A DNA stretch of 64,000 nt from Owenia fusiformis (taxonomy: Eukaryota; Annelida; Polychaeta; Sabellida; Oweniidae): assembly GCA_903813345.2 (NCBI GenBank), contig CAIIXF020000008.1:257341-321340 (forward strand), read 5' to 3'. A model generated the notes under the pieces. It was not told where the DNA came from and ran no database searches. It saw only the letters and a program-made list of their open reading frames with translations. This document shows, one piece after another, positions 1 to 41,600 of this stretch; the first letter of the stretch is position 1, and each line of letters opens with the position of its first letter. The position numbers and the translations under genes were made by a program.

Positions 1-3000
1 TTGTTAGATGCAAGTTTTAACCAGGAAGTGATGAAGTATGACAGCATTCAGAACAAATGGTGCCTGAAGAACAACCATGCTATAATACATGACACTAACA
101 TCTGTTGCTATGTATTCCAGGTGTTGTTAGATGCAAGTTGTAACCAGGAAGTGATGAAGTATGACAGTATACAGAACAAATGGTGCCTGAAAAACAACCA
201 TGCTATAATACATGACAATAACATCTGTTGCTATGTATTCCAGGTGTTGTTAGATGCAAGTTGTAACCAGGAAGTGATGAAGTATGACAGGATACAGAAC
301 AAATGGTGCCTGAAGAACAACCATGCTATAATACATGACACTAACCTCTGTTGCTATGTATTCCAGGTGTTGTTAGATGCAAGTTGTAACCAGGAAGTGA
401 TGAAGTATGACAGGATACAGAACAAATGGTGCCTGAAGAACAACCATGCTATAATACATGACACTAACCTCTGTTGCTATGTATTCCAGGTGTTGTTAGA
501 TGCAAGTTGTAACCAGGAAGTGATGAAGTATGACAGCATACAGAACAAATGGTGCCTGAAAAACAACCATGCTATAATACATGACACTAACATCTGTTGC
601 TATGTATTCCAGGTGTTGTTAGATGCAAGTTGTAACCAGGAAGTGATGAAGTATGACAGGATACAGAACAAATGGTGCCTGAAAAACAACCATGCTATAA
701 TACATGACAATAACATCTGTTGCTATGTATTCCAGGTGTTGTTAGATGCAAGTTGTAACCAGGAAGTGATGAAGTATGACAGCATACAGAACAAATGGTG
801 TCTGAAAAACAACCATGCTATAATACATGACACTAACATCTGTTGCTATGTATTCCAGGTGTTGTTAGGTGCAAGTTGTAACCAGGAAGTGATGAAGTAT
901 GACAGCATACAGAACAAATGGTGCCTGAAAAACAACCATGCTATAATACATGACACTAACATCTGTTGCTATGTATTCCAGGTGTTGTTAGATTCAAGTT
1001 GTAACCAGGAAGTGATGAAGTATGACAGCATTCAGAACAAATGGTGCCTGAAAAACAACCATGCTATAATACATGACACTAACATCTGTTGCTATGTATT
1101 CCAGGTGTTGTTAGATGCAAGTTGTAACCAGGAAGTGATGAAGTATGACAGGATACAGAACAAATGGTGTCTGAAAAACAACCATGCTATAATACATGAC
1201 ACTAACATCTGTTGCTATGTATTCCAGGTGTTGTTAGGTGCAAGTTGTAACCAGGAAGTGATGAAGTATGACAGCATACAGAACAAATGGTGCCTGAAAA
1301 ACAACCATGCTATAATACATGACACTAACATCTGTTGCTATGTATTCCAGGTGTTGTTAGATTCAAGTTGTAACCAGGAAGTGATGAAGTATGACAGGAT
1401 ACAGAACAAATGGTGCCTGAAAAACAACCATGCTATAATACATGACAATAACATCTGTTGCTATGTATTCCAGGTGTTGTTAGATGCAAGTTGTAACCAG
1501 GAAGTGATGAAGTATGACAGCATACAGAACAAATGGTGTCTGAAAAACAACCATGCTATAATCAGTGTTTTCAGTAGGCTTGTCCAAAATTGCGTCCCTT
1601 GGACGTAATGATTTTCAAAAAATGCGTCTCCCTTCAAAAAACTGCGTCCCTTGAAAAAATGTTCCCGGGAATTCAAAAGTCACGTTTTTACACTGGATGA
1701 AATAAATTGATGAAATTTTGTACCACTGCTTTTGCTATTTATCGGTCTGAATCAGCGTTCTTGCAAGTCTAGTATGTCATTGAATGATACAGATACCATC
1801 ATAACTTATATTCTCCCATTTAAAACACCTTTTCCTTGCGAATTTCGAAACAATTTGCTATTGATTTTGCTTTAGCATGTTTAGTTTAGGGGCAATCTGC
1901 GCGAGGTTCAACTTTTTAGTTCAGTTTCTTGCGCATATGCAGTCTCAAATAATGATCACGTGATCACACTTGACCAATTGAAAATGGTTTGAATCAGGTC
2001 TTAAGCTACCGGCCAATCGTAGGACTCATACTGATTACTGCTCGGAAATCGAGTATTGTATAAATTTTTGTCCTATCACATGCCTCGTACTATTTCGATC
2101 AGAAATCAACTTCCGGGAAGGAAATTTCGAAAGAAAATTTTATTTCTTTTAGAAATAGAATTTTCTTCAATTATTTATTGGATTCTGACGAAATAAAGAG
2201 ACTGAAGGTAAGATCTTTATCAAATCATTCATCCAAAGTTGATTGTATGAGTATGGCTTGCACTGCGTCCACAAAACGCAATCACTTTTTATTTCCGGGT
2301 CCATGGATTTTTCATTACGTTTTTGCAATACTTGGACGGCGTTATTGAAATAGCAGTATAATACATGACACTAACATCTGTTGCTATGTATTCCAGGTGT
2401 TGTTAGGTGCAAGTTGTAACCAGGAAGTGATTAAGTATGACAGCATTCAAAACAAATGGTGCCTGAAAAACAACCATGCTATAATACATGACACTAACAT
2501 CTGTTGCTATGTATTCCAGGAGTTGTTAGATGCAAGTTGTAACCAGGAAGTGATGAAGTATGACAGCATACAGAACAAATGGTGCCTGAAAAACAACCAT
2601 GCTATAATACATGACACTAACATCTGTTGCTATGTATTCCAGGTGTTGTTAGATGCAAGTTGTAACCAGGAAGTGATGAAGTATGACAGGATACAGAACA
2701 AATGGTGCCTGAAAAACAACCATGCTATAATACATGACAATAACATCTGTTGCTATGTATTCCAGGAGTTGTTAGATGCAAGTTGTAACCAGGAAGTGAT
2801 GAAGTATGACAGGATACAGAACAAATGGTGCCTGAAAAACAACCATGCTATAATACATGACAATAACATCTGTTGCTATGTATTCCAGGAGTTGTTAGAT
2901 GCAAGTTGTAACCAGGAAGTGATGAAGTATGACAGCATACAGAACAAATGGTGCCTGAAAAACAACCATGCTATAATACATGACACTAACATCTGTTGCT

Positions 3001-4118
3001 ATGTATTCCAGGTGTTGTTAGGTGCAAGTTGTAACCAGGAAGTGATGAAGTATGACAGCATACAGAACAAATGGTGCCTGAAAAACAACCATGCTATAAT
3101 ACATGACACTAACATCTGTTGCTATGTATTCCAGGTGTTGTTAGATGCAAGTTGTAACCAGGAAGTGATGAAGTATGACAGCATACAGAACAAATGGTGC
3201 CTGAAAAACAACCATGCTATAATACATGACAATAACATCTGTTGCTATGTATTCCAGGAGTTGTTAGATGCAAGTTGTAACCAGGAAGTGATGAAGTATG
3301 ACAGCATACAGAACAAATGGTGCCTGAAAAACAACCATGCTATAATACATGACACTAACATCTGTTGCTATGTATTCCAGGTGTTGTTAGATGCAAGTTG
3401 TAACCAGGAAGTGATGAAGTATGACAGGATACAGAACAAATGGTGCCTGAAAAACAACCATGCTATAATACATGACACTAACATCTGTTGCTATGTATTC
3501 CAGGTGTTGTTAGATGCAAGTTGTAACCAGGAAGTGATGAAGTATGACAGCATACATAACAAATGGTGCCTGAAAAACAACCATGCTATAATACATGACA
3601 CTAACATCTGTTGCTATGTATTCCAGGTGTTGTTAGATGCAAGTTGTAACCAGGAAGTGATGAAGTATGACAGCATACAGAACAAATGGTGCCTGAAAAA
3701 CAACCATGCTATAATACATGACAATAACATCTGTTGCTATGTATTCCAGGAGTTGTTAGATGCAAGTTGTAACCAGGAAGTGATGAAGTATGACAGCATA
3801 CAGAACAAATGGTGCCTGAAAAACAACCATGCTATAATACATGACAATAACATCTGTTGCTATGTATTCCAGGAGTTGTTAGATGCAAGTTGTAACCAGG
3901 AAGTGATGAAGTATGACAGCATTCAGAACAAATGGTGCCTGAAAAACAACCATGCTATAATACATGACACTAACATCTGTTGCTATGTATTCCAGGTGTT
4001 GTTAGATGCAAGTTGTAACCAGGAAGTGATGAAGTATGACAGGATACAGAACAAATGGTGCCTGAAAAACAACCATGCTATAATACATGACACTAACCTC
4101 TGTTGCTATGTATTCCAG
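1..4118 (+). repeat. 123-bp tandem array of LYST exon plus 3' splice site
   Basis: Twenty-eight copies are in view counting the exon copy at 4119: thirteen from 1 to 1562 (the last interrupted) and fifteen from 2363 on. The array continues past the left edge. Each unit holds about 105 bases of the exon at 4119 followed by an intron end that reads as pyrimidine-rich sequence ending CCAG. The unit is 41 codons and stop-free in the LYST frame. Copies differ by a few point changes (Ser/Arg, Thr/Asn, Val/Glu, Asp/Gly), several silent. Units carry an acceptor but no donor, so they could only be added to the following exon, not spliced in as separate exons. Most likely intronic, but coding use is possible. 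Confidence 0.95.
1563..2356. mobile_element. 794-bp TIR element inserted in the 123-bp array
   Basis: The array is broken within one unit. The flanks carry TATAAT at 1557-1562 and again at 2357-2362, and the ends are imperfect inverted repeats of about 30 bases sharing TTTCA, TCCAA and TTGC in order, starting CAGTG on the left and ending TAGCAG on the right. Removing the element and one TATAAT leaves 86 + 37 = 123 bases, the exact unit length, which fixes the boundaries. No transposase is present, so it is non-autonomous. The superfamily is unresolved: the 6-bp duplication is unusual for hAT (8) or Tc1/mariner (2). Confidence 0.8.
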
Positions 4119-7100
4119 GTGTTGTTAGATGCAAGTTGTAACCAGGAAGTGATGAAGTATGACAGCATACAGAACAAATGGTGCCTGAAGAACAACCATG
4201 CTATAATACATGACACTAACATCATCAAGCATCTCATCTTAGCCTGGAAGGTTAGCAGCCATATATGTTTTCGTTATCAAGTTGGACTCCAACATTGTTT
4301 ATCCATTTCACTACTTGCCACAATCAATCTTACTGTCAGCATATCAACCCAGCCCCGTCCATCAAACTTAGTCAAACTATCGTTCAAAAATCAGGTTGTC
4401 ATGTTTACCAAAGCTTTATAGTTACTATGGCAACAGTGAAAATAGGAATAAAAATGAGTACAAAAACACCCAAACCTACCATAATAGCACTAGTTTTTTA
4501 GATAGGCATACATCTTTTCTTAAGCTTTAATATTGTCTAGAACACTCATATACAACAAAAAATGGGGTAAATTTACCACTTGGATTTCTTTCTAGGCATG
4601 GTCAAAGTAAAACTCATTTTCACTATAGAATTACCTATTATCGTCCAAAGGGCTTTATTTATTCAACCTCATGGTTTCTATGTTAAACATAGAATAACAG
4701 AGCTTCAGGCAATGATTGAAAGGTATTTACCATGGAACAAATATCTTTGCACTGGAACACCCCTCTTCAAGAAATAACACATGTAAAAGGGGAACTATGT
4801 CTATAAATGTCATCAAAACTTTGTGTCAAAATGTAAAAAGGCCATTTCTGCACTACTTTTGGTGTAATAATTTCATTACTTCTAAACCCATAAATAACAC
4901 TCTGTTACCTTATTATTATGTTGTGTTAAATATTGGATGGATAAACTATTGGTCAGTAAGGCTTTGTACATAAAAACTGAATCACAGTTTGATTACGGTA
5001 ATTCTGATTGTGTGGGCCATAGTTAACCTGAACTTGGTCAGGCCCAATTTGAGGATTAATCACATCCACCATGTTAATATAATATTATGAAACGTCATCT
5101 GAACCAAACCAAGAGAAAAGAATCATAGTCCAATACTAACCCAATAGTAATGGACCCTACCTGGTATAATATTATATAAACTTTACATTGAAGCATCACC
5201 ATTATTTATACAAATTCTATTTTCTTTAGGTCTGGCAGAGATCCGAACATGTTATATGGCAAATGTCATTCCAAGCCCTTGAGAATCTAACACACGAGGA
5301 GAACCCTTATAGAGAGTTCAACATTAAGAAACTACAGTTTGCTGATATAGTTGCTGATCTTATGCATATTTGTCTGGTAAATAATAATATTTGTATCATA
5401 ATTATGGTGTTATATGGAATTTAGCGAAAAGTACTATGGAACTCTTATTTTTCAAAGGAATGATGAAAGTCATATCTTATATATTTTATCTAATGGATCA
5501 AATGATATCCCCTCGAAAAGTATAGGATATCATATATGTTACAGGATATGCTTTACAAAATGTACATGTATTCACAACTTAAAAATATTTTGAGGGATTT
5601 ATAAGTAGTCTTCCGGCAAATTGATTAACATATTGTTGAGTTCAGAAATTGTGTGAGAAAGGACTGATAGGTAACTATAGCAATGTGTATTCTGTGTTTC
5701 AGGAACGTATACAAGAATCCTACAGTGCTGTTCATCCAAGTATAGCACTAAGTATAGTGAACATCGTCCAAGACTTACTAGGGTCACCCCCAGATATTAA
5801 CCTCCTGGTGACAATATGTGACTTCTTACTATTGTTACATCCTGCTATGTGTACCTATATATCACATACTGCCTCTAAGTTTTACTTTCTACACAAGTGG
5901 AGTAAGTTTGGTTTTGCTTGTTTATTCAACATAGAATAATATTGATATTTACCTAAAATGATTCCTTGTCCTTTCATGCCTCTATATTATGTAAACCATG
6001 AGAACTGAACATTAAAAATTGGAATTATTTCTCTTCGTGTTATTTATTTAAATATTTTGATGTTTAGTTTGTGCAGAAGTGGAATAGTTGAGTTTGGGGG
6101 AAAACTTTTAATGTACATGCATTGGTAATCTAATAATACATCCCCATTTAAAGCCCAACCCATGTTTGCTCATTTTGAATGTTGAGATATAGCACTGTAA
6201 TATTTCCTAGGTTCAAGTGAGACTAAGGTTAAGAAGTTACCGCAACCCAGCTATGTTTCACGTCAGATCAGCAAAGAGTCCAGGAATAGATCAGCTGATC
6301 ATGTACCTGTACACGTCGTCAAACTCAGGAACTCACAATCTGAATCTGAGTCAAATGGTTTGTAATACAGTTTCATCATTATACTGACAAAACTTCTCTT
6401 ACATTATCCCATCTATGATGATATTTTTTCATATCCATAAAAATGTTAAAGGTTACCAAGTTCTACATTTTGTTTTCTCGCAGCCTTTTATAAGTTTTAG
6501 ATATCTATTCAATAAGATTTTTGTCCAATTCAGACACATGACAGAGGCCGCTTAGTTATGCATCTGGTTTTCTTTTTGGTGGCCATTTTTTCTGGCAGTC
6601 ATATAATAAAATTATTTGATAAATCTTGTCATTTGAGTAAATCCACTCATCAGATTTTCTTTGAAGATAACTTTATATTTTATGCTTTCTTGTTGGCATG
6701 ATAACATTCACATTATGTGCCTGGTGTATATTGTGAGCTAATATTATTTAACAGAAAAAGGTGCCAGACCAAGATCATCAAGTCTACCATTGGTGCCTCA
6801 TGTAGAGAAATCCATGCAGTTCTTCCAATCCCAGAGCAGTGATGAAGACCCCAAAATGCTAGTTAAGCCAGCCTCCGATACTCTCCTCCCCACACTCTCC
6901 AAGACAAACAGACAGCACACTCCAAATATGGAAGACCAGAAAAATGGAGAATCGTTTTTCTTAGATACTGATGATGAAATCACAAATATGTTTTCCTTTG
7001 TGAATGAACTTGAAAATGTTGAAGAGGAAAGTATTACAAAGGATTTTAAGGATCTACAGAATTTAGCACTGCAAAAACAATATATTGATGATACTAGCAC

Positions 7101-22200: not shown

Positions 22201-25200
22201 AAAATGGCCTCCATTTTTCATAAAAAAAGGTGATGTGTGTTAACTCAAATATCATTGTACGGATACGGTCCATCCACATTCAATTTATGTATCTATAGTG
22301 CCCATTTGACCTGTCATCGCCATTTCCCAGTTCACCCAGTTCTCGAGAAATTGCCAATTTTGAGGTAAAAAGTCCAATTTTTATGTCACCACCAAAAAGT
22401 GGTGACATTTTGCATGTTAATGCCTTGTCTCCAAATATCAGACACTTTGTTAAAGTAGAACTTTCAAATAAATGTTAGAAATTGCCATATGTGTAACATA
22501 TGTTCTCTGAAGATTTCAAAGCTCTTTGAATTACAGTTTTCAGTGTTTACTCTAGCCTTGCCCAAGTCGGTCTCTTTTACTATCTGATTTCTATTATGAC
22601 CGCCTTGTACAAAAGAGAAAGCCACGTGCTTTACCGACTCAATGTTTATGTCGGTAAAATTTGACCAATCAACGACGGCCCTGCAGTGCTAGCTCATTAT
22701 TATGCATGGTCAAAAACAAGTACACTTTCGTCGGGACTTTTCACGAACAAATCTTGCATGAATTCATAATGAAAATACAAATATTTTATCAGATAAATAT
22801 CAATCAGAGTTAAGTGGATGCTAGACATCGATCGGTAACCGGAGGTTAGAAGATTTCAACAATAAATGTTGAAATGATCGCTGAATTCAAATGAACATGT
22901 AGGCTGAGATTCAATCACTGATCGACGAGTGTACATGACCCGCTACATTGGACTAGGTCTTGCATTTTCATCGCAAAATCAGTTTTAAATCTATTGCATG
23001 ATTTAATTTATATTAATGACTCTTACATTCCCTATGTACATTTAATTACATAATATATTGTAACTCTTAAGAAACGATCGATCAGATCATTGAATTTCAA
23101 GTCGTAGACGGGAAGATTGCTTTGCTGTGCAGCTCAACCTGATAACGTTTTGATTGGTCAATCAGCCTGAAGTCACACGTCGTGTCCACGCGTATATCTG
23201 TCAATCAATAAGGTTTCGCGATACCCCTGATAGCGTAGGTATTATGGAAATCTCGAAACCGTTGAATATCTCAGCATAATAGCAGCGGAGATGTATTGGA
23301 TTGTACAAGGCGGTAATAATTCAAGATCAGATAAGTAAAAAATACCAACTTGGGCAAGGCTATGTTTACTCTTTAAAGTCAAAAAGTAGGACTTTGTCAT
23401 TTTCAGGGAATTTTCTCATGTATAAGGTCAATGGCAGGTTTTGTGATTGAAAATTGTTTTAAAGTAACTATAAGTAACTGAGTAACTAACTCAATGACTT
23501 AGTACCTACCTAAGTCTAAATATGAGTACCTTAATGACTTAGTAATTAACTCGTGTAAATTGGACAAAAAGAGTTCTTTCTGTTCAGAGTTAATCCTTTC
23601 CAAACATAATGTGGTCACAAATCACTGTTTGGCCACAGGGCAATAGGTCCTTCATGTAAAATAATGAAACCAAATGACATTGTTGTAGCCATACTGCAAG
23701 CTGTATAAGTGTCACTGTTTGGCCACAGGGCAATAGGTCCTTTATGTAAAATAATGAAACCAAATGACATTGTTGTAGCCATACTGCAAGCTGTATGAGT
23801 GTCACCCAATCCAGTGAAACCAGAGGAGAAATTCTGTTTGGTAAGCTGCTATGATTAATAGAATTTTCAAGTGAAACTAAGAGTTTTAATTCTTAAATAT
23901 GATTATAATGAGTAAAATAGAAAAATTTAAGATGTTAGCCTTTTCAAAGAATTTTTCTCATTTTCTTAAAGAAGGTTCCAAAAGTTTCCTTTTAAAAGTT
24001 ATTATCCACTGGTTTTTTTTATTTGGTCATAATGTCAAATTATTTCTGGCTCAACCTGCAAAAATTATATTACAGTCATTAGGATTTAATTTTTATTAAA
24101 TTGTCTATTTTAGGTGAGAAGACCATATATTTTGTTGGTGATGAAACCTTTCTGGAGGGGACAAATGTCCAGGTAATTTGATTGGTCATAGTTTATGGTA
24201 TCTTTGTCAGTTTTCATATTTTTAGCGTAAAACAATCAAAATGTATTTTCTAGCGTAAAACATTTATAATGAGAATCTCAATATTCCCAATAATTATTTT
24301 AGAAAACACTTTTTGTTTATATGAGCTTCTGGTTTGAGTTCTGATTTCTTGATTTTATGTTTACTGTGTGGTATTTCCCACATGTAACCACAATCTAGCT
24401 TAGGGATTAAAATTTTGCCCATGGTCAAAAAAGCATGTATAAAAATGCAGTCTAATTAATACCTGGGTCACATTTGCATTCACAAATGACAAAATATTTA
24501 TATTGAACATTTTCGTAATATTCTTTTTGTTCAAAACAATGAAATTGTAACATTTAAACTTAAAAAATTTAAATTTTAAAATTAAAGAATTAAAACTGGA
24601 TATTTAAACTTTTTTAAACTTTTGAAAAATTCCCGGGAGCGGGATAGATATATTATATCTGCCCGCATTTGGCCTGGAGCGGGACATATACAATATATCC
24701 TGCCCGCTCCTCAGATACGATATATATTCCCGGGTGATATCTACCCCAAACCCACTCAAGTATGAGATACGACCATGTACATGTACTGTTATAATACCAT
24801 TTTCATCCTTTTTATTTTATTTAGAGTACACCACGCCATGAGACTTGGCCATTTGAAGATATTCGGGAGATCTTGAAACGCTGGTACCAGTTGAAGGACA
24901 ATGCACTTGAAATATTCCTCACCCATGGCAATTCTTACCTCTTAGCCTTCCAGTCTACAAAGGTATTCACTTTATTGTAATATTCCGCACCCATGGCAAT
25001 TCTTACCTCTTAGCCTTCCAGTAGGTATTCACTTTATTGTAATATTCAGCACCCATGGCAATTCTTACCTCTTAGCCTTCAAGTCTACAAAGGTATTCAC
25101 TTTATTGTAATATTCCGCACCCATGGCAATTCTTACCTCTTAGCCTTCCAGTAGGTATTCACTTTATTGTAATATTCTGCACCCATGGCAATTCTTACCT

Positions 25201-28200
25201 CTTAGCCTTCCAGTCTACAAAGGTATTCACTTTATTGTAATATTCCGCACCCATGGCAATTCTTACCTCTTAGCCTTCCAGTCTGCAAAGGTATTCACTT
25301 TATTGTAATATTCTGCACCCATGGCAATTCTTACCTCTTAGCCTTCCAGTCTACAAAGGTATTCATTTTATTGTAATATTCCGCACCCATGGCAATTCTT
25401 ACCTCTTAGCCTTCCAGTCTACAAAGGTATTCACTTTATTGTAATATTCCGCAACCATGGCAATTCTTACCTCTTAGCCTTCCAGTCTACAAAGGTATTC
25501 ACTTTATTGTAATATTCCGCACCCATGGCAATTCTTACCTCTTAGCCTTCCAGTCTACAAAGGTATTCACTTTATTGTAATATTCCGCACCCATGGCAAT
25601 TCTTACCTCTTAGCCTTCCAGTCTACAAAGGTATTCACTTTATTGTAATATTCCGCACCCATGGCAATTCTTACCTCTTAGCCTTCAAGTCTACAAAGGT
25701 ATTCACTTTATTGTAATATTCCGCACCCATGGCAATTCTTACCTCTTAGCCTTCCAGTCTACAAAGGTATTCACTTTATTGTAATATTCCTCACCCATGG
25801 CAATTCTTACCTCTTAGCCTTCCAGTCTACAAAGGTATTCACTTTATTGTAATATTCCGCACCCATGGCAATTATTACCTCTTAGCCTTCAAGTCTACAA
25901 AGGTATTCACTTTATTGTAATATTCCGCACCCATGGCAATTCTTACCTCTTAGCCTTCCAGTCTACAAAGGTATTCACTTTATTGTAATATTCCGCACCC
26001 ATGGCAATTCTTACCTCTTAGCCTTCAAGTCTACAAAGGTATTCACTTTATTGTAATATTCCGCAACCATGGCAATTCTTACCTCTTAGCCTTCCAGTCT
26101 ACAAAGGTATTCACTTTATTGTAATATTCCGCACCCATGGCAATTCTTACCTCTTAGCCTTCAAGTCTACAAAGGTATTCACTTTATTGTAATATTCTGC
26201 ACCCATGGCAATTCTTACCTCTTAGCCTTCAAGTCTACAAAGGTATTCACTTTATTGTAATATTCCGCACCCATGGCAATTCTTACCTCTTAGCCTTCAA
26301 GTCTACAAAGGTATTCACTTTATTGTAATATTCCGCACCCATGGCAATTCTTACCTCTTAGCCTTCAAGTCTACAAAGGTATTCACTTTATTGTAATATT
26401 CCTCACCCATGGCAATTCTTACCTCTTAGCCTTCCAGTCTACAAATGTATTCTCTTAAATGTTTCATTATAAGTTCAGTTTGTATAAGCTTTTAAATGTG
26501 AACTGATTTGACTCTGTCTAAAATTTGAAAGATCTAAGAACACATAAACAGAATACCTCCTGATTTCTTAAAAATATTGTGTGAGTGCGATCATTGATTC
26601 AGGAATACTTTTTGTAGTCTTGCCAAGATTATTCCTATTGGTTTGATTGGCAAAATTTTTCCCTGGGATAGGTTCACAAAGAGCATTTCAGTACATTCTT
26701 TAAATTTTTACTACATCTCTGATTTACAATATTTAGCCATTGTGATAACTCCTTTTCTGTCACTCTTTGCGTCTTAAAAGTTAATGACTGAACATACCAT
26801 TGTGTTTTATATCAGGAGAGGGATGCTATATACAGATGCTTAGAATCATTAGATCTGCCAAACGTCATACGTGGTGAGGACTTTCAAGCTATCCACCAGT
26901 TCTGGATCCGTGGAGAGATGACCAACTTTGAGTACCTGACCCACCTTAACAAGATGGCTGGAAGGTCTTTCAATGATCTAATGCAATACCCAGTGTTCCC
27001 CTTTATACTGGCTGAATATAAGAGCAGCACAATAGACCTTAAAGATCCCAGAATTTACAGGTATAAGTGAGGTCAATGTTCTCACTATATGTAAATACTA
27101 TGTGCATTATGTGGACTATGTTATCACTATAATTAAGGAAAATGTTAACAGTATTAGTGACGACAATGTTTTCACATATATGTTAGGAAAATGTTTGTTC
27201 TACAAGTGAAGACTATGTTTGCCCAAGTTGGGGGCAATGTGCACTCTAGCTGAGAACTGCTGTTTGCTTGAGAGTTTGATGTATACTTTGATTCCTGTTT
27301 GCTTGAGGGTTTGATGTATACTTTGTTCCTGTTTGCTTGAGGGTTTGATGTATACTTTGATACCTGTTTGCTTGAGGGTTTGATGTATACTTTGATTCCT
27401 GTTTGCTTGGGGGTTTGATGTATACTTTGATTCCTGTTTGCTTGAGGGTTTGATGTATACTTTAATTCCTGTTTGCTTGAGAGTTTGATGTATACTTTGA
27501 TTCCTGTTTGCCTGAGGGTTTGATGTATATTTCGATTCCTGTTTGCTTGAGGGTTTGATGTATACTTTGATTCCTGTTTGCCTGAGGGTTTGATGTATAT
27601 TTCGATTCCTGTTTGCTTGAGAGTTTGATGTATACTTTGATTCCTGTTTGCCTGAGGGTTTGATGTATACTTCGATTCCTGTTTGCTTGAGGGTTTGATG
27701 TATACTTTGATTCCTGTTTGCTAGAGGGTTTGATGTATACTTTGATTCCTGTTTGCTTGAGGGTTTGATGTATACTTTGATTCCTGTTTGCTTGAGAGTT
27801 TGATGTTTACTTTGTTCCTGTTTGCCTGAGGGTTTGATGTATACTTTGATTCCTGTTTACCTGAGGGTTTGATGTATACTTTAATTCCTGTTTGCTTGAG
27901 AGTTTGATGTATACTTTGATTCCTGTTTGCCTGAGGGTTTGATGTATATTTCGATTCCTGTTTGCTTGAGGGTTTGATGTATACTTTGATTCCTGTTTGC
28001 CTGAGGGTTTGATGTATATTTCGATTCCTGTTTGTTTGAGAGTTTGATGTATACTTTGATTCCTGTTTGCCTGAGGGTTTGATGTATACTTCGATTCCTG
28101 TTTGCTTGAGGGTTTGATGTATACTTTGATTCCTGTTTGCTAGAGGGTTTGATGTATACTTTGATTCCTGTTTGCTTGAGGGTTTGATGTATACTTTGAT

Positions 28201-31200: not shown

Positions 31201-34200
31201 TATTATCATTCTGCCAGTTTATGAAGCCATAAAAATGGATGAAGAACATGTTTTGATTTAAAAGTATGCTACAGTTTCCAATGTGTTTTCTCAAAACAAT
31301 ATCTAAAAAAGTCGATGAATAATTTTCGATTAAGTTGTAACTATTCAAAAGATGACCACTACATTGATGATGATTTTTCAGAATTTTTGACGACTGGTTT
31401 AAGAGAAAAATGTGTTAGTTGACAGACAGCATATCGCTACAAATCCTTTCATATTCCATCAGCACTTGAAGGGTCTTATGTTAGCTTTAAATAACATGTC
31501 ATATCTATTGAGTATACATGCTGTTAATAAACACAAGACTCTGATGCATAACACTCTCTTGCAGCAATGTGACATCCAAGTTATCGGCCCAAGGCTGTAT
31601 CTCTATGGTCACTCTGCAGCAGTCACCCAATTAAAGATCTGTAAACCCTATAGCATTCTGGTCAGTGCAAGTCAAGATGGGACTTGTATCATATGGGATC
31701 TTAATAGGTATGTAAGTTTGAAATCAGCTAAGCATGTAAGCTGTTTGGATGAGATATATATGGGACATAGGTACTGTAGCCTACTCAACTCTTAAATCAG
31801 GAAATAGAGAAATTATATACAGTTGTTTCACAGGTCTCACATTAAATAAAAATTATTTATTTCAGGTTGAGTTATGTGAGAGACATCAGAAGCCATCATA
31901 ATGCTGTAGATGAGCTTGCTCTCAGTGACACTCTTGGAGATATTGCCTCTGTCAGTCGTCATGGTATGTAGTAATTCAACCATAATGATTAGTGATATTC
32001 TTAGAGATATTGCCTCCACCAGTCCTCATGGTATGTTATGATTGGACCATAATGATTAGTGATATTCTTAGAGATATTGCCTCTGTCAGTCGTCATGGTA
32101 TGTTATGATTGGACCATAATGATTAGTGATATTCTTAGAGATATTTCCTCTGTCAGTCCTCATGGTATGTTATGATTGGACCATAATGATTAGTGATACT
32201 TTTGGAGATATTGCCTCTGTCAGTCGTCATGGTATGTAGTAATTGGACCATAATGATTAGTGATACTTTTGGAGATATTGCCTCTGTCAGTCATCATGGT
32301 ATGTAGTAATTGGACCATAATGATTAGTGATACTTTTGGAGATATTGCCTCTGTCAGTCATCATGGTATGTAGTAATTGGACCATTATGATTAGTGATAC
32401 TCTCGGAGATATTGCCTCTGTCAGTCATCATGGTATGTAGTAATTGGACCATAATGATTAGTGATACTTTTGGAGATATTGCCTCTGCCAGTCATCATGG
32501 TATGTAGTAATTGGACCATAATGATTAGTGATACTTTTGGAGATATTGCCTCTGTCAGTCGTCATGGTATGTAGTAATTGGACCATAATGATTAGTGATA
32601 CTCTTAGAGATATTGCCTCCGCCAGTCATCATGGTATGTTATGATTGGACCATAATGATTAGTGATATTCTTAGAGATATTGCCTCTGTCAGTCCCCATG
32701 GTATGTTATGATTGGACCATAAGGATTAGTGATATTCTTAGAGATATTGCCTCCACCAGTCCTCATGGTATGTTATGATTGGACCATAATGATTAGTGAT
32801 ATTCTTAGAGATATTGCCTCCACCAGTCCTTATGGTATGTTATGATTGGACCATAATGATTAGTGATATTCTTAGAGATATTGCCTCCACCAGTCCTCAT
32901 GGTATGTTATGATTGGACCATAATGATTAGTGATATTCTTAGAGATATTGCCTCCACCAGTCCTCATGGTAAGTTATGATTGGACCATAATGATTAGTGA
33001 TACTCTTAGAGATATTGCCTCTGCCAGTCATCATGGTATGTTATGATTGGACCATAATGATTAGTGATACTCTTGGAGATATTGCCTCGGTCAGTCATCA
33101 TGGTATGTAGTAATTGGACCATAATGATTAGTGATACTTTTGGAGATATTGCCTCCACCAGTCCTCATGGTATGTTATGATTGGACCATAATGATTAGTG
33201 ATATTCTTAGAGATATTGCCTCCACCAGTCCTCATGGTATGTTATGATTGGACCATAATGATTAGTGATATTCTTAGAGATATTGCCTCCACCAGTCCTC
33301 ATGGTATGTTATGATTGGACCATAATGATTAGTGATATTCTTAGAGATATTGCCTCCACCAGTCCTCATGGTATGTTATGATTGGACCATAATGATTAGT
33401 GATATTCTTAGAGATATTGCCTCCACCAGTCCTCATGGTATGTTATGATTGGACCATAATGATTAGTGATATTCTTAGAGATATTGCTTCCACCAGTCCT
33501 CATGGTATGTTATGATTGGACCATAATGATTAGTGATATTCTTAGAGATATTGCCTCTAACAGTCCTCATGGTATGTTATGATTGGACCATCATGATTAG
33601 TGATATTCTTAGAGATATTGCCTCTAACAGTCCTCATGGTATGTTATGATTGGACCATAATGATTAGTGATATTCTTAGAGATATTGCCTCCACCAGTCC
33701 TCATGGTATGTTATGATTGGACCATAATGATTAGTGATATTCTTAGAGATATTGCCTCTGTCAGTCCCCATGGTATGTTATGATTGGACCATAAGGATTA
33801 GTGATATTCTTAGAGATATTGCCTCCACCAGTCCTCATGGTATGTTATGATTGGACCATAATGATTAGTGATATTCTTAGAGATATTGCCTCCACCAGTC
33901 CTTATGGTATGTTATGATTGGACCATAATGATTAGTGATATTCTTAGAGATATTGCCTCCACCAGTCCTCATGGTATGTTATGATTGGACCATAATGATT
34001 AGTGATATTCTTAGAGATATTGCCTCCACCAGTCCTCATGGTATGTTATGATTGGACCATAATGATTAGTGATACTCTTAGAGATATTGCCTCTGCCAGT
34101 CATCATGGTATGTTATGATTGGACCATAATGATTAGTGATACTCTTGGAGATATTGCCTCTGCCAGTCATCATGGTATGTAGTAATTGGACCATAATGAT

Positions 34201-35257
34201 TAGTGATACTTTTGGAGATATTGCCTCTGCCAGTCATCATGGTATGTAGTAATTGGACCATAATGATTAGTGATACTCTTAGAGATATTGCCTCCACCAG
34301 TCTTCATGGTATGTTATGATTGGACCATAATGATTAGTGGTTTTTATGTGAGAAGTAAAGCCCCACCACATTCTAATACTAGTACTGAACCCATATTACA
34401 TTATTCATATACATGCTTCTGATCATCCTCCGATCACAGGGCTTCAAAATCCAGAATATCTTCTTTCTTTTTACCCCCTGCTATAACCAAGTTGGACGCG
34501 CCGATTAAACTGAATCACGTGATCTTATTATGCGCCGATGACGAATACATGATTTCTGTCGCAGTGATGCGACAGCCAATCAAATTGCGAGTTCTTAATC
34601 GGGGAAATGCTAACTGCTTATAGCAGGGGGAAGAAGGAGGTACGGATTCTGGACACCTGCTTAGGAGGATGGCTTCTGATTGATAGCACATTTTTACAGG
34701 AAATGGGAGTTGTCTGCAGTTACACACTGTGAATGCTGAACATGTGAACACAACATACACGGAACAAAAAATCATCTGTCTCTGTTATTCCAACCTGGAT
34801 GAAGGTCGATCAATGAATGTCATTGCTGGGGGATTGTCCGATGGCTCTGTTGTATTATGGCATAGCTGGAACTTGTCGAAGATACGCAGAATCCATGTCA
34901 GCTCTCTAACTAGCAGTATAACCAGGTATATATTCATTCAACTTATAATTGACCTACCGTAAAGCCTCTCTATTAGTGTCTTATCTGAATGCTGTTGGGA
35001 CTGGCCAAAACTGTGTGTTCATATTGACAAGAGTTCACATGAGAGAAGGTGTTTGGTGTACTCCTTGCTTTCCATAATTTTTATCGTTAGAATATTGTGC
35101 TTGCATGTTTATAATCAGATTTCTATCTATTTTCAGTTTGACATTTTCTCAAGATTGCCAGAGACTGTTTGTGACCAACAGCATGGGTACTGTATTTATG
35201 TGGGAACTACCCACCTCTGGTAGGCCAAAGCCACCTAACTTCATATCATTCACATAG
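4119..35257 (+). CDS. LYST: LYST/Beige lysosomal trafficking regulator, 3' half (35 exons)
   Basis: LYST is a very large cytosolic BEACH-family scaffold that controls the size and fission or fusion of lysosome-related organelles; human loss causes Chediak-Higashi syndrome. I placed 35 exons by GT-AG sites and matching phases. Their lengths sum to 5481 bases, exactly 1827 codons with the stop at 35255-35257, so the visible part is 1826 residues against about 3800 for the full vertebrate protein. Order in the partial protein: helical/concanavalin-like middle region (residues about 1-1060), PH-BEACH (about 1060-1145), BEACH (about 1160-1450), WD40 (about 1490-1826). Key matches are the BEACH stretch [16 protein letters not shown], the block [19 protein letters not shown] and WD-repeat ends such as CIIWDLNR. 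This pattern fits LYST better than NBEA, LRBA or WDFY3 because the pre-BEACH and C-terminal blocks also align with LYST. The start codon is outside the window. Identification rests on recalled family sequence, not a search. Confidence 0.95.
4251..5229 (+). other. LYST intron, no recognised element
   Basis: A 979-base AT-rich intron with GT-AG ends. Short open frames here show no recognisable product. The later introns 5377-5702, 5902-6210 and 6358-6754 are likewise without visible structure. Confidence 0.7.
7253..8548. repeat. Three tandem copies of a ~490-bp repeat in a LYST intron
   Basis: Copies lie at about 7253-7737, 7740-8043 (missing its first ~120 bases) and 8059-8548. Copies 1 and 3 both start with a GACGGGA-TTTTTCG motif and end AACCAAAGTAATGAGTAT. 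They differ by point changes and small indels. Each holds several phrases of the form 'ATTCAAAATGGC', seen again in diverged form near 21.8-22.2 kb. No coding capacity is recognised; the same-frame open frames at 7350-8298 on the minus strand are shadows of this repeat. Confidence 0.8.
8549..8972. mobile_element. Possible small TIR element
   Basis: The stretch starts with TAGATGCGAGTAG and ends with CTACTTGCATCTA, a 13-base inverted repeat with one mismatch. No clear target duplication is seen and the internal sequence is not recognised. It directly follows the three-copy repeat. Confidence 0.3.
9343..12754 (+). CDS. LYST: LYST exons 6-12 of the window (helical repeat region)
   Basis: Exons are 9343-9485, 9851-10014, 10179-10308, 10730-10830, 11178-11264, 11452-11648 and 12623-12754, all bounded by AG and GT with consistent phases. 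They encode a leucine-rich helical stretch that follows the LYST order: a GLLDIL start, a VLANH motif, LLASQLHQY, and then a segment ending in [12 protein letters not shown]. These are ARM/HEAT-like helices expected to act as a protein-binding scaffold; no catalytic residues are expected. The introns are short except the last, where a 5.6-kb foldback transposon begins 77 bases after the donor at 12755. Confidence 0.88.
9636..9736. repeat. Degenerate short tandem repeat
   Basis: About five imperfect copies of a ~17-19-base phrase containing GTGAACACCTCT lie in the intron between 9486 and 9850. No other feature is seen in this intron or in 10309-10729 and 10831-11177. Confidence 0.6.
11675..11770. 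repeat. Imperfect hairpin of about 95 bases
   Basis: The phrase ATCCTATGATTTA near 11678 recurs inverted as TAAATCATAGGAT near 11755, with further pairing of GATATC-rich inner parts. It resembles a small foldback MITE in the intron after exon 11452-11648. Confidence 0.5.
12099..12594. mobile_element. 496-bp MITE with TA duplication (Tc1/mariner-like)
   Basis: Both ends read CTGTAGATTGGGTTAATTTG inward for at least 20 perfect bases, then diverge with repeated GGCG/CGCC motifs. The element is flanked by TA at 12097-12098 and 12595-12596. There is no transposase. It sits in the intron 27 bases upstream of the acceptor of the exon at 12623. Confidence 0.75.
12832..18448. mobile_element. 5.6-kb foldback element with ~1.1-kb inverted arms
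   Basis: It fills almost all of the 5.76-kb intron between exons at 12623 and 18511. The arms 12832-13915 and about 17360-18448 are inverted copies: nearly identical over the outer ~190 bases, then about 75-85% alike. Within each arm a ~370-bp unit is repeated in tandem, each with an AT-rich octamer palindrome next to a CRE-like site. Flanking TA at 12830-12831 and 18449-18450 suggests a TA duplication. The core (13916-17360) has a ~110-bp near-direct duplication (14020-14235), a GGTGACA palindrome repeat (14292) and a nested MITE (16615-17242). No transposase is recognised, so it is non-autonomous. Confidence 0.8.
16615..17242. mobile_element. 628-bp CAGGGTGTC-type MITE nested in the foldback element
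   Basis: It starts CAGGGTGTCAAAAAAC and ends with the inverse, flanked by TA on both sides (16613-16614, 17243-17244). The inverted arms extend well over 100 bases with moderate divergence and include TTTTTGCTGTAGAGGGGGGT on the right. TA duplication and the ends fit Tc1/mariner. It belongs with the element at 39522-40104. Confidence 0.8.
18511..21305 (+). CDS. LYST: LYST exons 13-20 of the window (pre-PH region)
   Basis: Exons are 18511-18617, 18977-19063 (or from 18980, see NAGNAG finding), 19357-19482, 19597-19890, 20059-20135, 20413-20601, 20824-20969 and 21197-21305. The block WQLDPTEGP in the seventh is a strong LYST signature just upstream of the PH-BEACH domain, and the preceding exon ends in IEQLTHER, also LYST-like. 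Exon 19597-19890 contains a lineage-specific run of about five imperfect 10-residue repeats built on SNQEK/NQEHP, a low-complexity insertion where vertebrate LYST has a different linker. Phases are consistent throughout. Confidence 0.88.
18815..18970. repeat. Dispersed GGTGACA repeat next to a LYST acceptor
   Basis: About 155 bases beginning GTGGTGACATATTGTT and running to GCCTTGTTTG also occur at about 14310-14432, and parts recur at 22400-22430. Its right edge merges into the pyrimidine tract of the exon at 18977, so the repeat may supply part of this 3' splice site. Confidence 0.6.
21690..22270. repeat. Degenerate tandem repeat with ATGGCC phrases
   Basis: Four to five diverged units of about 115-130 bases share phrases such as 'TATGCTGATGCC', 'TTTTCAAGATGGCC' and 'ACTCAAAT'. 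They lie in the 2.5-kb intron 21306-23790. The phrase set overlaps with that of the repeat at 7253-8548. Confidence 0.65.
22383..22408. repeat. GGTGACAT palindrome of a dispersed repeat
   Basis: ATGTCACCACC and GGTGACAT pair around an A-rich loop. The same structure is at 14292-14317 in the foldback element, so this is likely the conserved end of a dispersed family. Confidence 0.55.
22553..23362. mobile_element. 810-bp Mutator-like non-autonomous element
   Basis: Both ends read TAGCCTTGCCCAAG inward, and imperfect pairing continues for about 60 bases to CCGCCTTGTAC. It is flanked by the 9-base direct repeat TGTTTACTC at 22544-22552 and 23363-23371. A 9-bp duplication with a long TIR is typical of MuDR/MULE elements; Merlin (8-9 bp) is the alternative. 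No transposase is visible. Confidence 0.82.
23622..23803 (+). repeat. 90-bp duplication across a LYST 3' splice site
   Basis: Two copies, offset by exactly 90 bases, each contain CACTGTTTGGCCACAGGG, the intron end and the first ~14 bases of the exon at 23791. The second copy is the functional one. Splicing at the first copy (near 23701) would meet an in-frame TAA within the second copy. Confidence 0.85.
23791..24962 (+). CDS. LYST: LYST exons 21-23 of the window (PH-BEACH domain)
   Basis: Exons are 23791-23840 (only 50 bases), 24114-24172 and 24825-24962. Together they encode the PH-like domain that packs against BEACH: a strand with [17 protein letters not shown], then [10 protein letters not shown], then the helix and strands with [13 protein letters not shown] and YLLAFQSTK. 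The region is about 80 residues, the usual length. Two of the three exons are flanked by junction-spanning tandem repeats: the acceptor side of the 50-base exon is duplicated (90 bp) and the donor side of the 138-base exon is the seed of the 68-bp array. Only the copies chosen here keep the frame. Confidence 0.9.
24632..24740. other. GC-rich patch with inverted motifs
   Basis: In an otherwise AT-rich intron (24173-24824) this stretch starts and ends with TCCCGGG and holds inverted GAGCGGGA / TCCCGCTC-like motifs around ATATATAT runs. Nothing else is seen in the intron. Confidence 0.4.
24908..26450 (+). repeat. 68-bp tandem array of LYST exon end plus donor
   Basis: About 23 copies, the first being the real end of the exon 24825-24962. 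Each unit holds ~50 bases of exon, the AAG/GTATTC donor and ~20 bases of intron. A few early units lack six bases (CTACAA). The last copy has a changed donor (AATGTATTC). Because 68 is not a multiple of three and an in-frame TAA follows the first donor within 18 bases, only the first donor is productive. The remainder of the intron, 26451-26815, shows nothing. Confidence 0.95.
26816..29915 (+). CDS. LYST: LYST exons 24-28 of the window (BEACH domain)
   Basis: Exons are 26816-27060, 28494-28711, 28865-29005, 29206-29423 and 29760-29915. They encode an intact BEACH domain of about 290 residues. Visible landmarks in order: [75 protein letters not shown] and the end block YGQTPKQLF. No gap or stop is present. 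BEACH domains act in membrane trafficking together with the adjoining PH-like fold. The 1.4-kb intron between the first two exons is largely filled with a 35-bp minisatellite. Confidence 0.95.
27258..28345. repeat. 35-bp minisatellite in a BEACH-domain intron
   Basis: About 31 copies of a unit containing CTGTTTGCTTGAGGGTTTGA with a few variant positions (CTTGAG/CCTGAG, ACTTTG/ATTTCG). Blocks of variants recur in the same order, so segments of several units were duplicated together. Unlike the 68- and 67-bp arrays it does not include an exon edge. Confidence 0.93.
30027..35257 (+). CDS. LYST: LYST exons 29-35 of the window (WD40 propeller and C-terminus)
   Basis: Exons are 30027-30279, 30503-30639, 31081-31179, 31565-31707, 31866-31963, 34700-34925 and 35137-35257. 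WD40-type landmarks include [37 protein letters not shown] and GTVFMWELP. The product ends shortly after, at a TAG at 35255-35257, close to where LYST ends relative to the last repeat. The exon 31866-31963 is the source of the 67-bp array that fills the next intron; using any later donor copy would run into the in-frame TAG located four bases after the donor GT. Confidence 0.92.
30655..30752. repeat. Microsatellite-like GTGCTGTGCAGT repeat
   Basis: Simple repeats of GTGCTGTGCAGT and GTAGTGCT lie just after the donor of the exon 30503-30639. The rest of this intron to 31080, and the intron 31180-31564, hold nothing recognised. Confidence 0.7.
31914..34345 (+). repeat. 67-bp tandem array of LYST exon end plus donor
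   Basis: About 36 copies, the first being the end of the exon 31866-31963. Each unit includes ~40 exon bases (GATATTGCCTC core), the CATG/GTATG donor and ~20 intron bases ending GGACCATAATGATTAG. Two main variant groups exist (GTAGTAATT versus GTTATGATT after the donor; CTGTCAGTC versus CACCAGTCC), and long blocks of the array repeat each other in order. Later donors would include an immediate stop, so only the first is productive. Confidence 0.95.
34430..34675. mobile_element. Possible ~245-bp MITE
   Basis: Near the left edge CCAGAAT...CCCCCTGCTATAA pairs with the inverse on the right edge (TTATAGCAGGGGG...ATTCTGG), giving imperfect inverted ends of about 50-60 bases. No target duplication was confirmed. 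It lies between the 67-bp array and the exon at 34700. Confidence 0.45.
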
Positions 35258-36236: not shown

Positions 36237-36704
36237 GTAGAGGGTGAAAGCAAGGTGAATATAAACCTCATTAATGTTGAGGGTGAAAGCAAGGTGAATG
36301 TAAACCTCATTAATGTTGAGGGTGAGGTGAATATAAACCTCATTAATGTTGAGGGTGAAAGCAAGGTGAATGTAAACCTCATTAGTGTTGAGGGTGAGGT
36401 GAATATAAACCTCATTAATGTTGAGGGTGAAAGCAAGGTGAATGTAAACCTCATTAGTGTTGAGGGTGAGGTGAATATAAACCTCATTAATGTTGAGGGT
36501 GAAAGCAAGGTGAATGTAAACCTCATTAGTGTTGAGGGTGAGGTGAATATAAACCTCATTAATGTTGAGGGTGAAAGCAAGGTGAATGTAAACCTCATTA
36601 GTGTTGAGGGTGAGGTGAATATAAACCTCATTAATGTTGAGGGTGAAAGCAAGGTGAATGTAAACCTCATTAATGTTGAGGGTGAGGTGAATGTAAACCT
36701 CATG
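36237..36704. repeat. 72-bp higher-order minisatellite downstream of LYST
   Basis: Alternating 39- and 33-base subunits (with and without AAAGCAAG) make a 72-base unit repeated about six times. Both subunits are multiples of three, so frames stay open on both strands; that is a by-product of the period. It lies 1 kb after the LYST stop, likely in the 3' UTR or just beyond. Confidence 0.9.
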
Positions 36705-38032: not shown

Positions 38033-38038
38033 TTTATT
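38033..38038 (-). promoter_or_regulatory. Candidate NKIRAS poly(A) signal
   Basis: AATAAA on the minus strand, about 620 bases after the NKIRAS stop codon and just beyond the 25-bp minisatellite, which would then be in the 3' UTR. Confidence 0.35.
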
Positions 38039-38086
38039 GAAATGGAACAGATAAGAGCTCATTACAACAAAGCAAACATGTTCAAT

Positions 38087-38343
38087 ACAATACAGAGCCA
38101 ACATGTCCGATACAATACAGAGCCAACATGTCCGATACAATACAGAGCCAACATGTCCGATACAATACAGAGCCAACATGTCCGATACAATACAGAGCCA
38201 ACATGTCCGATACAATACAGAGCCAACATGTCCGATACAATACAGAGCCAACATATCCGATACAATACAGAGCCAACATGTCCGATACAATACAGAGCCA
38301 ACATGTCCGATACAATACAGAGCCAACATGTCCGATACAATAC
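38087..38343. repeat. 25-bp minisatellite in the NKIRAS 3' region
   Basis: About ten nearly identical copies of a 25-base unit containing ACAATACAGAGCCAACATGT. Because the period is not a multiple of three, all three frames of each strand show repeated open frames, none meaningful. Confidence 0.95.
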
Positions 38344-38661
38344 ATGCATTTTCCAATAAATACTTGATAATTTCCATTTAGGTTCATCTAATTTTGTGCA
38401 TTCTCTATAAATGCTACATGGATATGATGTCATAATACATGTACATGTTTGTGTCATCATCATTGGAGCCCATGGGTCATTAAATAAGTCTACTAATATA
38501 ATCACCCATTGGTTAATAATCCCAAGAAGCACCATGGTCTGAGATGGTCACCAATACTCATATTCCCAATTTAATCTCATCAATTTTTAGAATATCAGAG
38601 TAGTACATGCACTCCCAGAATGCAACAAAGCAGAATATCCACTCCAAGTATACAACTGTCT

Positions 38662-41600
38662 CTAGTCTGGTTGGGTCGGGGGTGCAGACTTTTGTTTCCT
38701 GCTCAATGGGTTAAAACTCATGGTCGACTTTGCTGGAGGCTGGTTCATTTTGGTGGTGAGCCACACAAAGGCATCCATCATAGACTGCCTTTTAGCACAC
38801 GAGATCTCCCATAGTTTCACTGGAATGATATACGAAGAGTAAGCTAAAGATAATCATAGACTGCCTTTTAGCACATGAGATCTCCAATAGTTTCACTGGA
38901 ATGATATATGAAGAGTAAGCAAAAGATAATCATAGACTGCCTTTTAGCGCATGAGATCTCCCATAGTTTCACTGGAATGATATACGAAGAGTAAGCTAAA
39001 GATAATCATAGACTGCCTTTTAGCACACGAGATCTCCCATAGTTTCACTGGAATGATATATGAAGAGTAAGCAAAAGATAATCATAGACTGCCTTTTAGA
39101 ACATGAGATCTCCCATAGTTTTACTGGAATGATATACGAAGAGTAAGCAAAAGATAATCATAGACTGCCTTTTAGCACATGAGATCTCCCATAGTTTCAC
39201 TGGAATGATATACGAAGAGTAAGCAAAAGATAATGAGTTGAAAACTTGGAATGCAGGCCTCCTAGACCTCCACTCCAGCAAACTTCAGTTCCAACTTCAT
39301 GAACTATGTTCCTATATATAAACTAAAAATAATATATATACAAATATAAATGTACCTTTCTCTTTCTGTGCCCAAGTCTGAGCAGTTGCAAAGTCTACTT
39401 GTCTGCTCTCCTTCAAGTCACATTTGTTCCCAAGGGCTATAATGACTAGCTGAAACATATAGAGGTTCTCAGGAGTTATTGTAGTCATCTTTCACATTTA
39501 AAATAAATACATGTATATGTACAGGGTGTCCCTACAGTATTGGACCCCCCTAGATGGACATAAACCAGTGTCTCCGTAGTATGTGTCATATATCATTTTA
39601 AAGCTTATCCAAAGTTACATTGATTTGTTAAGTGTCATGGTTCAACTCACAAATGATAAAAAGTTACAGGCATTTCAAAGCTTAGTGTTTGGCCAAATAT
39701 ATAGTACATTTCAGTACCCTGGAAATATGGGTGCTATTGTTGAAGATAGGATGGATATTGAGTTCTAAAAAGAGGGCATTGAGGGTAGATACTCCAAGGA
39801 AACTCTTCTAAAATGCCTTAAAACAGTTTTATGAGGATTACAAAATGCCATATCCCTATTTCAAGTTTAAAAGGTCATATTTGGAAAGCATTGCTGCTGC
39901 ATGGCCTAGGGAGCCACACGGACTATTATTTTGACTGACTTAAATTTTGGAATGCCTGTAACTTTCTCCCATTTGTGAGTTGAACCATGATACTTGGCAA
40001 ATCATTGGAAACTTTGGATGAGCATTAAAATTATGTATTACACATGCTATGGAGATATTGGCATATGTCTGCCTAGGGGGGGGCTATACTTTTGGGACAC
40101 CCTGACAATATCATTATTATGAAAATTGCAAAGCCAACTCAAAGAATCATTCTTGATAAATATTTCACACAGTATAGCATCTGAAAATGTCTACTTACTG
40201 AAGGATGACATGCCTATTACATTTCATAAATGATTGTAGAAATTCACTCATGAATGTATACTTACATCACGTTTTTCTTTATTTTTGTCAATATCTTTTT
40301 TCAATTTATCTATTGCAGCAAAGGAGTCCCAGTTTGTGACATCATACAACAATATGACACCCTGCAAAAATCATATATATTATTTTTCGTGCCTTAAAAA
40401 TATGACAAATACAAGTAAAAACTATTAAATATGTTGAATTAATTCACCATTAATATACAAGTATATACAGAATTGGTTCATACAGAAATGGCATTGATTT
40501 GGTGGGCTCACTCACATGGTGAAAAAATCTGATTTCTTCAAATAATACAAAAATATTTGTCAAAACCAATGGTGCAAATTACACCAATTAAAATGGATAT
40601 GAGCATTGATTGGTTCAGAATCAGAGCAATGACAGTTTTTGTTTGTCTTAAAATTGTTGATGGAAGGTCAGCGGACAGAAAAGTGGGCAATTTCATAGGT
40701 TCACACAATGTTAGCCACAAATTACTGTATTACATGTACATACATCAATGCAGGAGAAGTAGTGTCTGGGAAGGTCAGGTTTCTGGGGGTCACAGCCTGC
40801 TGTGTCATAGAATCGCACCTTCTCTCGTCCTCGTTCTGTGTCCACATATGCAACATAAGTATCCTCAATTGTAGAAAACATTGGCTGTAAGAAAGAACAA
40901 TTTTCATCTAACAATCTTAAAAAAACACAAAATCATTGACTTCTTTTTTATTTTCGTTTTATATGACCATGGGCTTTCAATCTATTGAATGCCCATGATA
41001 TGCCATATACATATGTTTCTATTTATATGTGTTAAGTTTCCAAAATCACAAATATGCTTGTCATGGGGCCTCCATTAATGAGACTGTGTAAAGCACATCC
41101 TTTCTGAGAGAAAAGCACTTAAGTCTTCTTTTTAATTGTACAGCATTTTCTCAAGACACTGCATTCAGTTTAAACAGTCATTGACGAAAAGAAAAAGACC
41201 GTGTGCAGTATGGCAAGTGATTTTAGACAGTCATATCTTTCACCATGAGTACTTTCTGGCCATAAATACAGTGGCTTTTATTAAAACAATATGTTTTCTT
41301 TCTTGAAAGATATGACCGTCTAAAATCACTTGCCATACTGCACGTGGTCTTTTCAAATTTTACCCATAGAAATGACTAAAAGTGACTAAAGGACTGGTGA
41401 GCATTGCCATGCTTCCCTTTTTTGGTAATATTTCACAAAGATTTAGATTAATGTATATGTTTATAGTATTATCTCGAAGAAAAGTCAATTTTGAACATGA
41501 TTAAAATTTGAGACATGATAAATCTCATTTGAAAGTAAAGAAAAAGACCAATTAGGGAAAGAGGAATCAAAATGTTCTCTTCAAGTCTTGCAGTGTGGGC

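Follow-up and report, generated by a model that had tools for sequence, protein, structure and literature searches.

Two adjacent genes in a 64-kb window of the annelid Owenia fusiformis (contig CAIIXF020000008.1; by window we mean the whole stretch of 64,000 nucleotides that was analysed) carry five tandem arrays, each of which repeats the edge of an exon together with its splice site. Four of the arrays, with units of 123, 90, 68 and 67 bp, lie in a BEACH-family gene on the forward strand, called LYST-like below, and the fifth, with a unit of 76 bp, lies in an NKIRAS gene on the reverse strand. They are probably the product of ordinary minisatellite expansion, some of whose units happen to cross junctions, tolerated because exon definition picks the splice site attached to the exon. 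The arrays themselves go far beyond what chance would give; for their number at junctions, this is not clear.

In an animal genome rich in repeats, tandem duplications would arise at random, and the resulting arrays would be enlarged by slippage or unequal exchange; some of the founding units would have chanced to span an exon edge. The fate of an array would then depend on where it lies: within an exon it would mostly break the frame, within an intron it would be free to grow, and across a junction it would be tolerated if the exon-attached site still wins. If splicing pairs the sites that are nearest across the exon, as exon definition supposes, the exon-attached copy would be used and the other copies, which we call decoys, would be removed with the intron. 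Junction-crossing duplications would thus survive because the extra copies are on the intron side and the nearest sites across the exon are still paired. Both the mechanism of expansion and the choice of splice site are what we infer from the sequence.

The five arrays and their working copies

All five arrays are detected by Tandem Repeats Finder (TRF) and are placed at junctions of our gene models (Table 1), as an earlier note on this DNA had claimed. Other parts of its description are borne out as well: two arrays, of 68 and 67 bp, are on the donor side and three, of 123, 90 and 76 bp, on the acceptor side, as seen from the working sites in the joined frames; the extra copies are on the intron side in every array; and the predicted productive site is the copy on the intact exon, which gives an open frame in all five.

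On the donor side, the 68-bp unit consists of about 55 exon and 13 intron bases, and the working donor would be AAAG/GTATTC at 24962/24963, in the first copy; the 67-bp unit consists of 40 exon and 27 intron bases, with CATG/GTATGT at 31963/31964, also in the first copy, as the working donor. On the acceptor side, the 123-bp unit joins about 20 intron bases to 103 exon bases, and its working acceptor, TTCCAG/GTG at 4118/4119, belongs to the last copy, as does that of the 76-bp array, the motif TTCCAG before position 38819 on the minus strand, whose unit joins 31 intron bases to about 45 exon bases. The working acceptor of the 90-bp repeat is TTGTAG at 23778/23779. The introns that hold the 68-, 67-, 90- and 76-bp arrays are 1853, 2736, 2473 and 536 nt long, and each has one end within its array and the opposite splice site outside. 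The intron of the 123-bp array has its upstream end beyond the window. This array is split by an insert of 794 bp, which is probably a small mobile element and would have arrived once the array was already enlarged.

Both gene models are predictions. The LYST-like model, obtained with a gene finder written for this analysis and run with the arrays masked, extends up to 35254 and has 34 exons, one of them placed by hand, that join into a single frame of 1774 residues with no stops. The masked finder had proposed an exon at 22544-22653, which we rejected: the interval 23779-23840, chosen by the unmasked run, fits the phase and the PH_BEACH domain instead. With this choice the 90-bp repeat becomes a junction array, and the junction counts given below are affected. 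In NKIRAS, which runs from 42196 to 38662, three exons come from the finder, while exon 3 and exon 1 (its bounds) were set by hand; the five exons joined encode 196 residues, followed by a stop. LYST, as opposed to another BEACH protein, is a putative name, taken over from the earlier note. The BEACH class of this gene is backed by the Beach, PH_BEACH and propeller families of Pfam and by neurobeachin and LRBA in PDB, two matches that include no LYST structure. NKIRAS is identified by a match to human NKIRAS1 (PDB 9qu1). A Pfam search of three frames of a 9-kb stretch returned a single weak match, under its cut-off.

Protein families back four of the five junctions, those of the 90-, 68-, 67- and 76-bp arrays. 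Once spliced, exons 20-22 give a PH_BEACH match (E 1.7e-19) that covers positions 1-98 of the 99 in the profile and so backs the exons adjoining the 90- and 68-bp arrays; at the 68-bp array, the alignment with neurobeachin (E 0.0013) continues into the exon edge that is repeated. The junction of the 67-bp array is spanned by beta-propeller families, most of them scoring under their curated cut-offs: NBCH_WD40, over residues 36-193 of the piece searched, falls below its own (E 1.3e-11, 44.4 bits for a cut-off of 50); one, the IFT140 propeller at residues 104-217, is above (36.7 bits for a cut-off of 27). Across the 76-bp junction, the alignment with NKIRAS1 runs up to 'EK' (E 5.7e-06) and resumes at 'V(K/R)LWE' (E 0.028). 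For the exon of the 123-bp array, a Pfam search gave no family match, so that its junction is predicted solely from the gene model, that is, from splice scores and an open frame.

Table 1. Arrays, insert and adjoining exons, in coordinates of the window
Feature	Position	Strand	Description
123-bp array, first block	1..1562	+	12 complete copies plus a partial one, truncated at the window start; acceptor motif TTCCAG/GTG 12 times
Insert splitting the 123-bp array	1563..2356		794 bp; 6-bp direct repeat TATAAT on each side (1557-1562, 2357-2362)
123-bp array, second block	2357..4223	+	about 15 copies; acceptor motif 15 times
First LYST-like exon in the model	4119..4250	+	adjoins the 123-bp array; gene model
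90-bp repeat	23622..23805	+	2 copies, each with acceptor TTGTAG; TCAC as 4-bp homology at the edges
Exon 20 (PH_BEACH)	23779..23840	+	adjoins the 90-bp repeat; hand-placed, phase agrees with both neighbours; Pfam
Exon 22 (PH_BEACH)	24825..24962	+	3' edge seeds the 68-bp array; model and Pfam
68-bp donor array	24907..26456	+	23 copies, two lacking 6 bp; TRF
Exon 32 (propeller region)	31866..31963	+	3' edge seeds the 67-bp array; model and Pfam
67-bp donor array	31924..34339	+	36 copies; TRF
NKIRAS last coding exon	38662..38819	-	5' edge seeds the 76-bp array; NKIRAS1 alignment
76-bp acceptor array	38777..39234	-	6 copies; TRF

The decoys and the cost of choosing one

The splice motifs are kept throughout the arrays. 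Acceptor motifs number 27 in all in the 123-bp array, and the motif is found in both copies of the 90-bp repeat and in all six copies of the 76-bp array; the donor GTATTC stands in 23 of 23 copies of the 68-bp array, the last one being preceded by AAAT and not AAAG, and all 36 copies of the 67-bp array have GTATGT or, in a single case, GTAAGT. The retained motifs show no sign of a decay of the decoys under selection, an idea that we rejected. The mean pairwise difference between copies is 2.4% for the 123-bp array, 3.0% for the 68-bp array (a figure that omits the two copies with a 6-bp loss), 8.2% for the 67-bp array and 3.9% for the 76-bp array. Among the decoys, exon-derived columns vary to a like degree as intron-derived ones (34 of 242 versus 9 of 92), and synonymous changes make up 12 of the 39 scored in exon columns, the expectation in the absence of constraint being 20-26%; for the 123-bp decoys, the corresponding figures are 5 of 12 and 20%, on tiny numbers. 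Left out of these column and synonymy counts are, besides the 90-bp repeat, every copy attached to an exon, the last copy and the two shortened ones of the 68-bp array, and the 123-bp copy that the insert interrupts. The counts give no clear sign of coding constraint on the decoys or of their purging. We also rejected the idea that RNA structure conceals the decoys: the five unit stretches fold no better than their shuffles, with z between -0.78 and 1.02.

Traces of how the arrays grew can be seen in two places. Between the six-unit blocks 32661-33062 and 33733-34134 of the 67-bp array there is a single difference in 402 bases, which indicates that this array also grew by the copying of several units at once. 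Direct homologies of 4 bp are present at the edges of two arrays, TCAC for the 90-bp repeat and AGTG for the 67-bp array, as expected of simple tandem duplication.

According to the earlier note, a wrong choice of copy would hit a stop except in the 123-bp array. For the other four arrays this stands, since the simple use of a decoy leads to a stop in 63 cases out of 63 (22/22 for the 68-bp array, 35/35 for the 67-bp array, 5/5 for the 76-bp array and 1/1 for the 90-bp repeat). The claim has to be corrected on two points. In the 123-bp array, 14 of the 26 decoys do lengthen the exon in frame and free of stops, but the other 12 hit a stop within the 794-bp insert; and the 67-bp array also allows 91 AG...GT pairs that are possible pseudo-exons of 75, 93 or 105 nt, stop-free and frame-keeping. 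The 68-bp array has 31 pairs that would keep the frame without a stop. The open frame of the 123-bp array is unsurprising: a unit of 123 bases, divisible by three and mostly exon, accounts for part of it.

There is also the possibility that the decoys are used, and that the arrays act as alternative-splicing switches which either produce truncated, decay-prone messages or, with the 123- and 67-bp arrays, add in-frame repeats. The stop-free decoys of the 123-bp array and the frame-keeping pairs of the 67-bp array would allow it, the gene finder calls array copies exons when it is run unmasked, and human genes offer precedents: two downstream repeat units act as donors in IFI6, as related in PMC4526556, and boundary repeats can yield alternative splicing in genes of segmental duplications, as described in PMC2812944. 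However, every simple decoy choice at four of the arrays ends in a stop, the synonymous share of the 123-bp decoys comes from tiny numbers, and the unmasked model was trained on the very arrays that it then called; we consider the use of decoys quite improbable. The same unmasked finder prefers to read the 123-bp array as one long coding exon. We leave this reading as a rival, but the finder was trained on its own output, and 5 synonymous changes out of 12 are too few to argue from.

Arrays at junctions and away from them

There is a hint of an excess of arrays at junctions, but it is not proven, and the outcome depends on what is counted. In the null model, each array is collapsed to one unit, and units of the same length are placed randomly within both genes; a junction is counted as crossed only if at least 5 bases lie on each side, and the survivable placements exclude those that are wholly in an exon or cross more than one junction. 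The arrays in genes are 18: 15 merged TRF arrays, and three from self-comparison (7381-8549, 13021-13749 and 21914-22257). The TRF row 1614-1661, within the 123-bp insert, is omitted, and the row 19668-19793 (21 bp, 6 copies) is merged with a 42-bp row. The repeat of that 42-bp row, at 19706-19793, is in model exon 15 (it has a period of 21 bp in the other row) and is in frame, giving a peptide repeat that contains Gln and Glu.

When all arrays are counted, 5 of the 18 are at a junction, where 2.47 are expected (P 0.08), or 3.00 with survivable placements (P 0.16); this is within reach of chance. With periods of at least 20, the count is 5 of 15 (P 0.07-0.14), and with periods of at least 50, 5 of 10 (P 0.04-0.09). 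The values drop to 0.006-0.012 for TRF scores of at least 300 (5 of 8) and to 0.005-0.008 for periods of 50-150 (5 of 7). Removing the three arrays that lie within an element with inverted ends, at 12823-18456, leaves 5 of 15 (P 0.02-0.036), and removing the 360- and 139-bp repeats as well, 5 of 13 (P 0.004-0.007). The narrower sets were chosen after the data had been seen, and the window itself was picked for its pattern.

The element at 12823-18456 is 5.6 kb long and lies in a LYST-like intron; its inverted ends, of about 1.1 kb and 80% alike, contain tandem subrepeats of about 373 bp, and it looks like a foldback-type DNA transposon. Elsewhere in the window, a pair of inverted repeats, each about 740 bp long, 85% alike and with tandem subrepeats of about 190 bp, is found at 50644-53200, and the open frames at 42928-43788 on the minus strand and 49381-50457 on the plus strand appear, judging from their translations, to resemble reverse transcriptases of the non-long-terminal-repeat type.

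The earlier note left two readings side by side, a mutational bias toward junctions and a general duplication process whose products selection has filtered. Of the two, the second is better supported by the window, and the first is less likely. Such a bias would make units that hold a junction more prone to tandem duplication or expansion here, by way, for instance, of template switching at exon edges or of structures formed during transcription. The low values of the narrower sets speak for it, and so do those obtained once repeats that are, or possibly are, in mobile elements have been dropped; the values for all arrays and for periods of at least 20 speak against it, as do the post hoc making of the sets, the selection of the window for its pattern, and the folding of the five unit stretches, no better than that of shuffles. 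On balance we find this bias unlikely. A further conjecture, that splice junctions attract or retain tandem expansion in this lineage, so that many genes would carry ladders of dozens of intact decoys, the exon edge would be part of a minisatellite, and decoy use at the 123- and 67-bp arrays could add in-frame peptide repeats, seems to us rather unlikely. Very improbable, in our view, is the proposal that some of the introns were born by tandem duplication of exon sequence, following the model of Rogers, with the array as a remnant. AG and GT motifs do lie close together within units, namely CACCAG, TCCTCATG and GTATGT in succession in the 67-bp unit, CTTAG...AAAG/GTATTC in the 68-bp unit and CAG/GT in the 123-bp unit, and cases have been worked out in the RdRp gene of potato (PMC4974935) and in fission yeast (PMC3629103), as those papers describe them; but the 68-, 67-, 76- and 90-bp arrays span only one end of their intron.

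Tolerated minisatellite growth, the reading that we prefer, is supported by the arrays of at least five copies that are found away from junctions: one of 35 bp with 31 copies in an intron, and arrays of 72 bp with 6 copies, 25 bp with 11 copies and 25 bp with 5 copies outside coding regions. The first of these minisatellites is at 27260-28342, in the middle of a LYST-like intron; the 72-bp one is at 36253-36703, between the coding regions and within a frame open for 169 codons; and the 25-bp one with 11 copies is at 38067-38344, also between the coding regions. Splicing rules for competing sites, as presented in PMC9225289, bear on the same reading. That paper puts the change to exon definition at flanking introns of about 250 nt: above this length, splicing favours the sites that lie closest to each other across the exon, and with short introns those closest across the intron, a preference that the paper presents as Reed and Maniatis's rule. 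The array introns of 536-2736 nt are above this length, and exon definition thus predicts that the exon-attached donor is used.

Several observations weigh against this reading. For acceptors, the passages of PMC9225289 that deal with exon definition speak of a preference for the upstream site that is significantly reduced, and do not state that it is reversed; the upstream acceptor being here a decoy, the preferred reading accounts less well for the three acceptor arrays, and it is in them that decoy use is most to be expected. The exon 31866-31963, which seeds the 67-bp array, has a short upstream intron of 158 nt. Finally, the arrays of at least five copies lie at junctions in 4 cases out of 6 within genes (P 0.003-0.005, the 21-bp array being counted; 4 of 5, P 0.002-0.004, if it is merged away). 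In the whole window the count is 4 of 10 (P about 0.002, including the 21-bp array and a 23-bp array at 59590), or 4 of 8 without those two (P 0.0013), the junctions of the models being treated as the only ones.

If the exon-attached copy is used throughout, the arrays are natural competitions inside a single gene, on donor and acceptor sides alike, between one working site and up to 35 near-identical decoys. The rules of intron proximity and exon proximity, as set out in PMC9225289, predict opposite winners, and one set of RNA data could separate them. A genome-wide excess at junctions, if true, would point to a bias in the birth of minisatellites, which the present window cannot show. A search for the BEACH exons in collections of genome contigs and viral contigs gave 31 and 1 pattern matches, none of them encoding a relative.

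Known counterparts

Arrays that cross junctions are a known kind of event; what is notable here is that there are five of them in two adjacent genes, and that their copy numbers are high. Among the titles listed from the literature, none surveys the whole genome of an invertebrate for such arrays. In an earthworm metallothionein gene, the minisatellites described in PMC12783039 are intronic and not at junctions.

Two of the counterparts concern the origin of introns. In the RdRp gene of potato (PMC4974935), the reported tandem duplication spans an existing acceptor junction, as in our acceptor arrays, but it comprises two copies and created a new intron whose splicing has RNA support, whereas the extra copies here appear to stay within the intron. 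In fission yeast, introns are reported inside 24-nt tandem repeats (PMC3629103). The likeness lies in tandem repeats that bear splice sites in a coding gene; the difference is that, as told there, repeats of an exon became new introns, whereas here existing junctions were repeated.

A further counterpart is found in human genes of segmental duplications, for which De Grassi and Ciccarelli (2009, PMC2812944) describe internal tandem repeats at exon-intron boundaries. Those are, like all five of our arrays, minisatellites that lie across exon-intron boundaries and are detected by TRF; the variable units average about 30 bp and are repeated 4 times. The paper reports copy numbers that vary between paralogs and an examination of transcripts, whereas we have the sequence of one copy of each gene.

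In the human gene IFI6 (6-16), multiple splice donors are described in a minisatellite (Turri, Cuin and Porter 1995, cited in PMC4526556). In the account given there, the units of a tandem repeat supply splice donors within a coding transcript, and our two donor arrays are alike: donor motifs are present in the units (23 of 23 for the 68-bp array and 36 of 36 for the 67-bp array), and the first copy is, judging from the open frame and from the PH_BEACH and propeller matches, part of a real exon. In IFI6, two downstream units are reported to be used, whereas in Owenia the donor motifs are known from the letters of the DNA, and the arrays, five in number, are found on both the donor and the acceptor sides.

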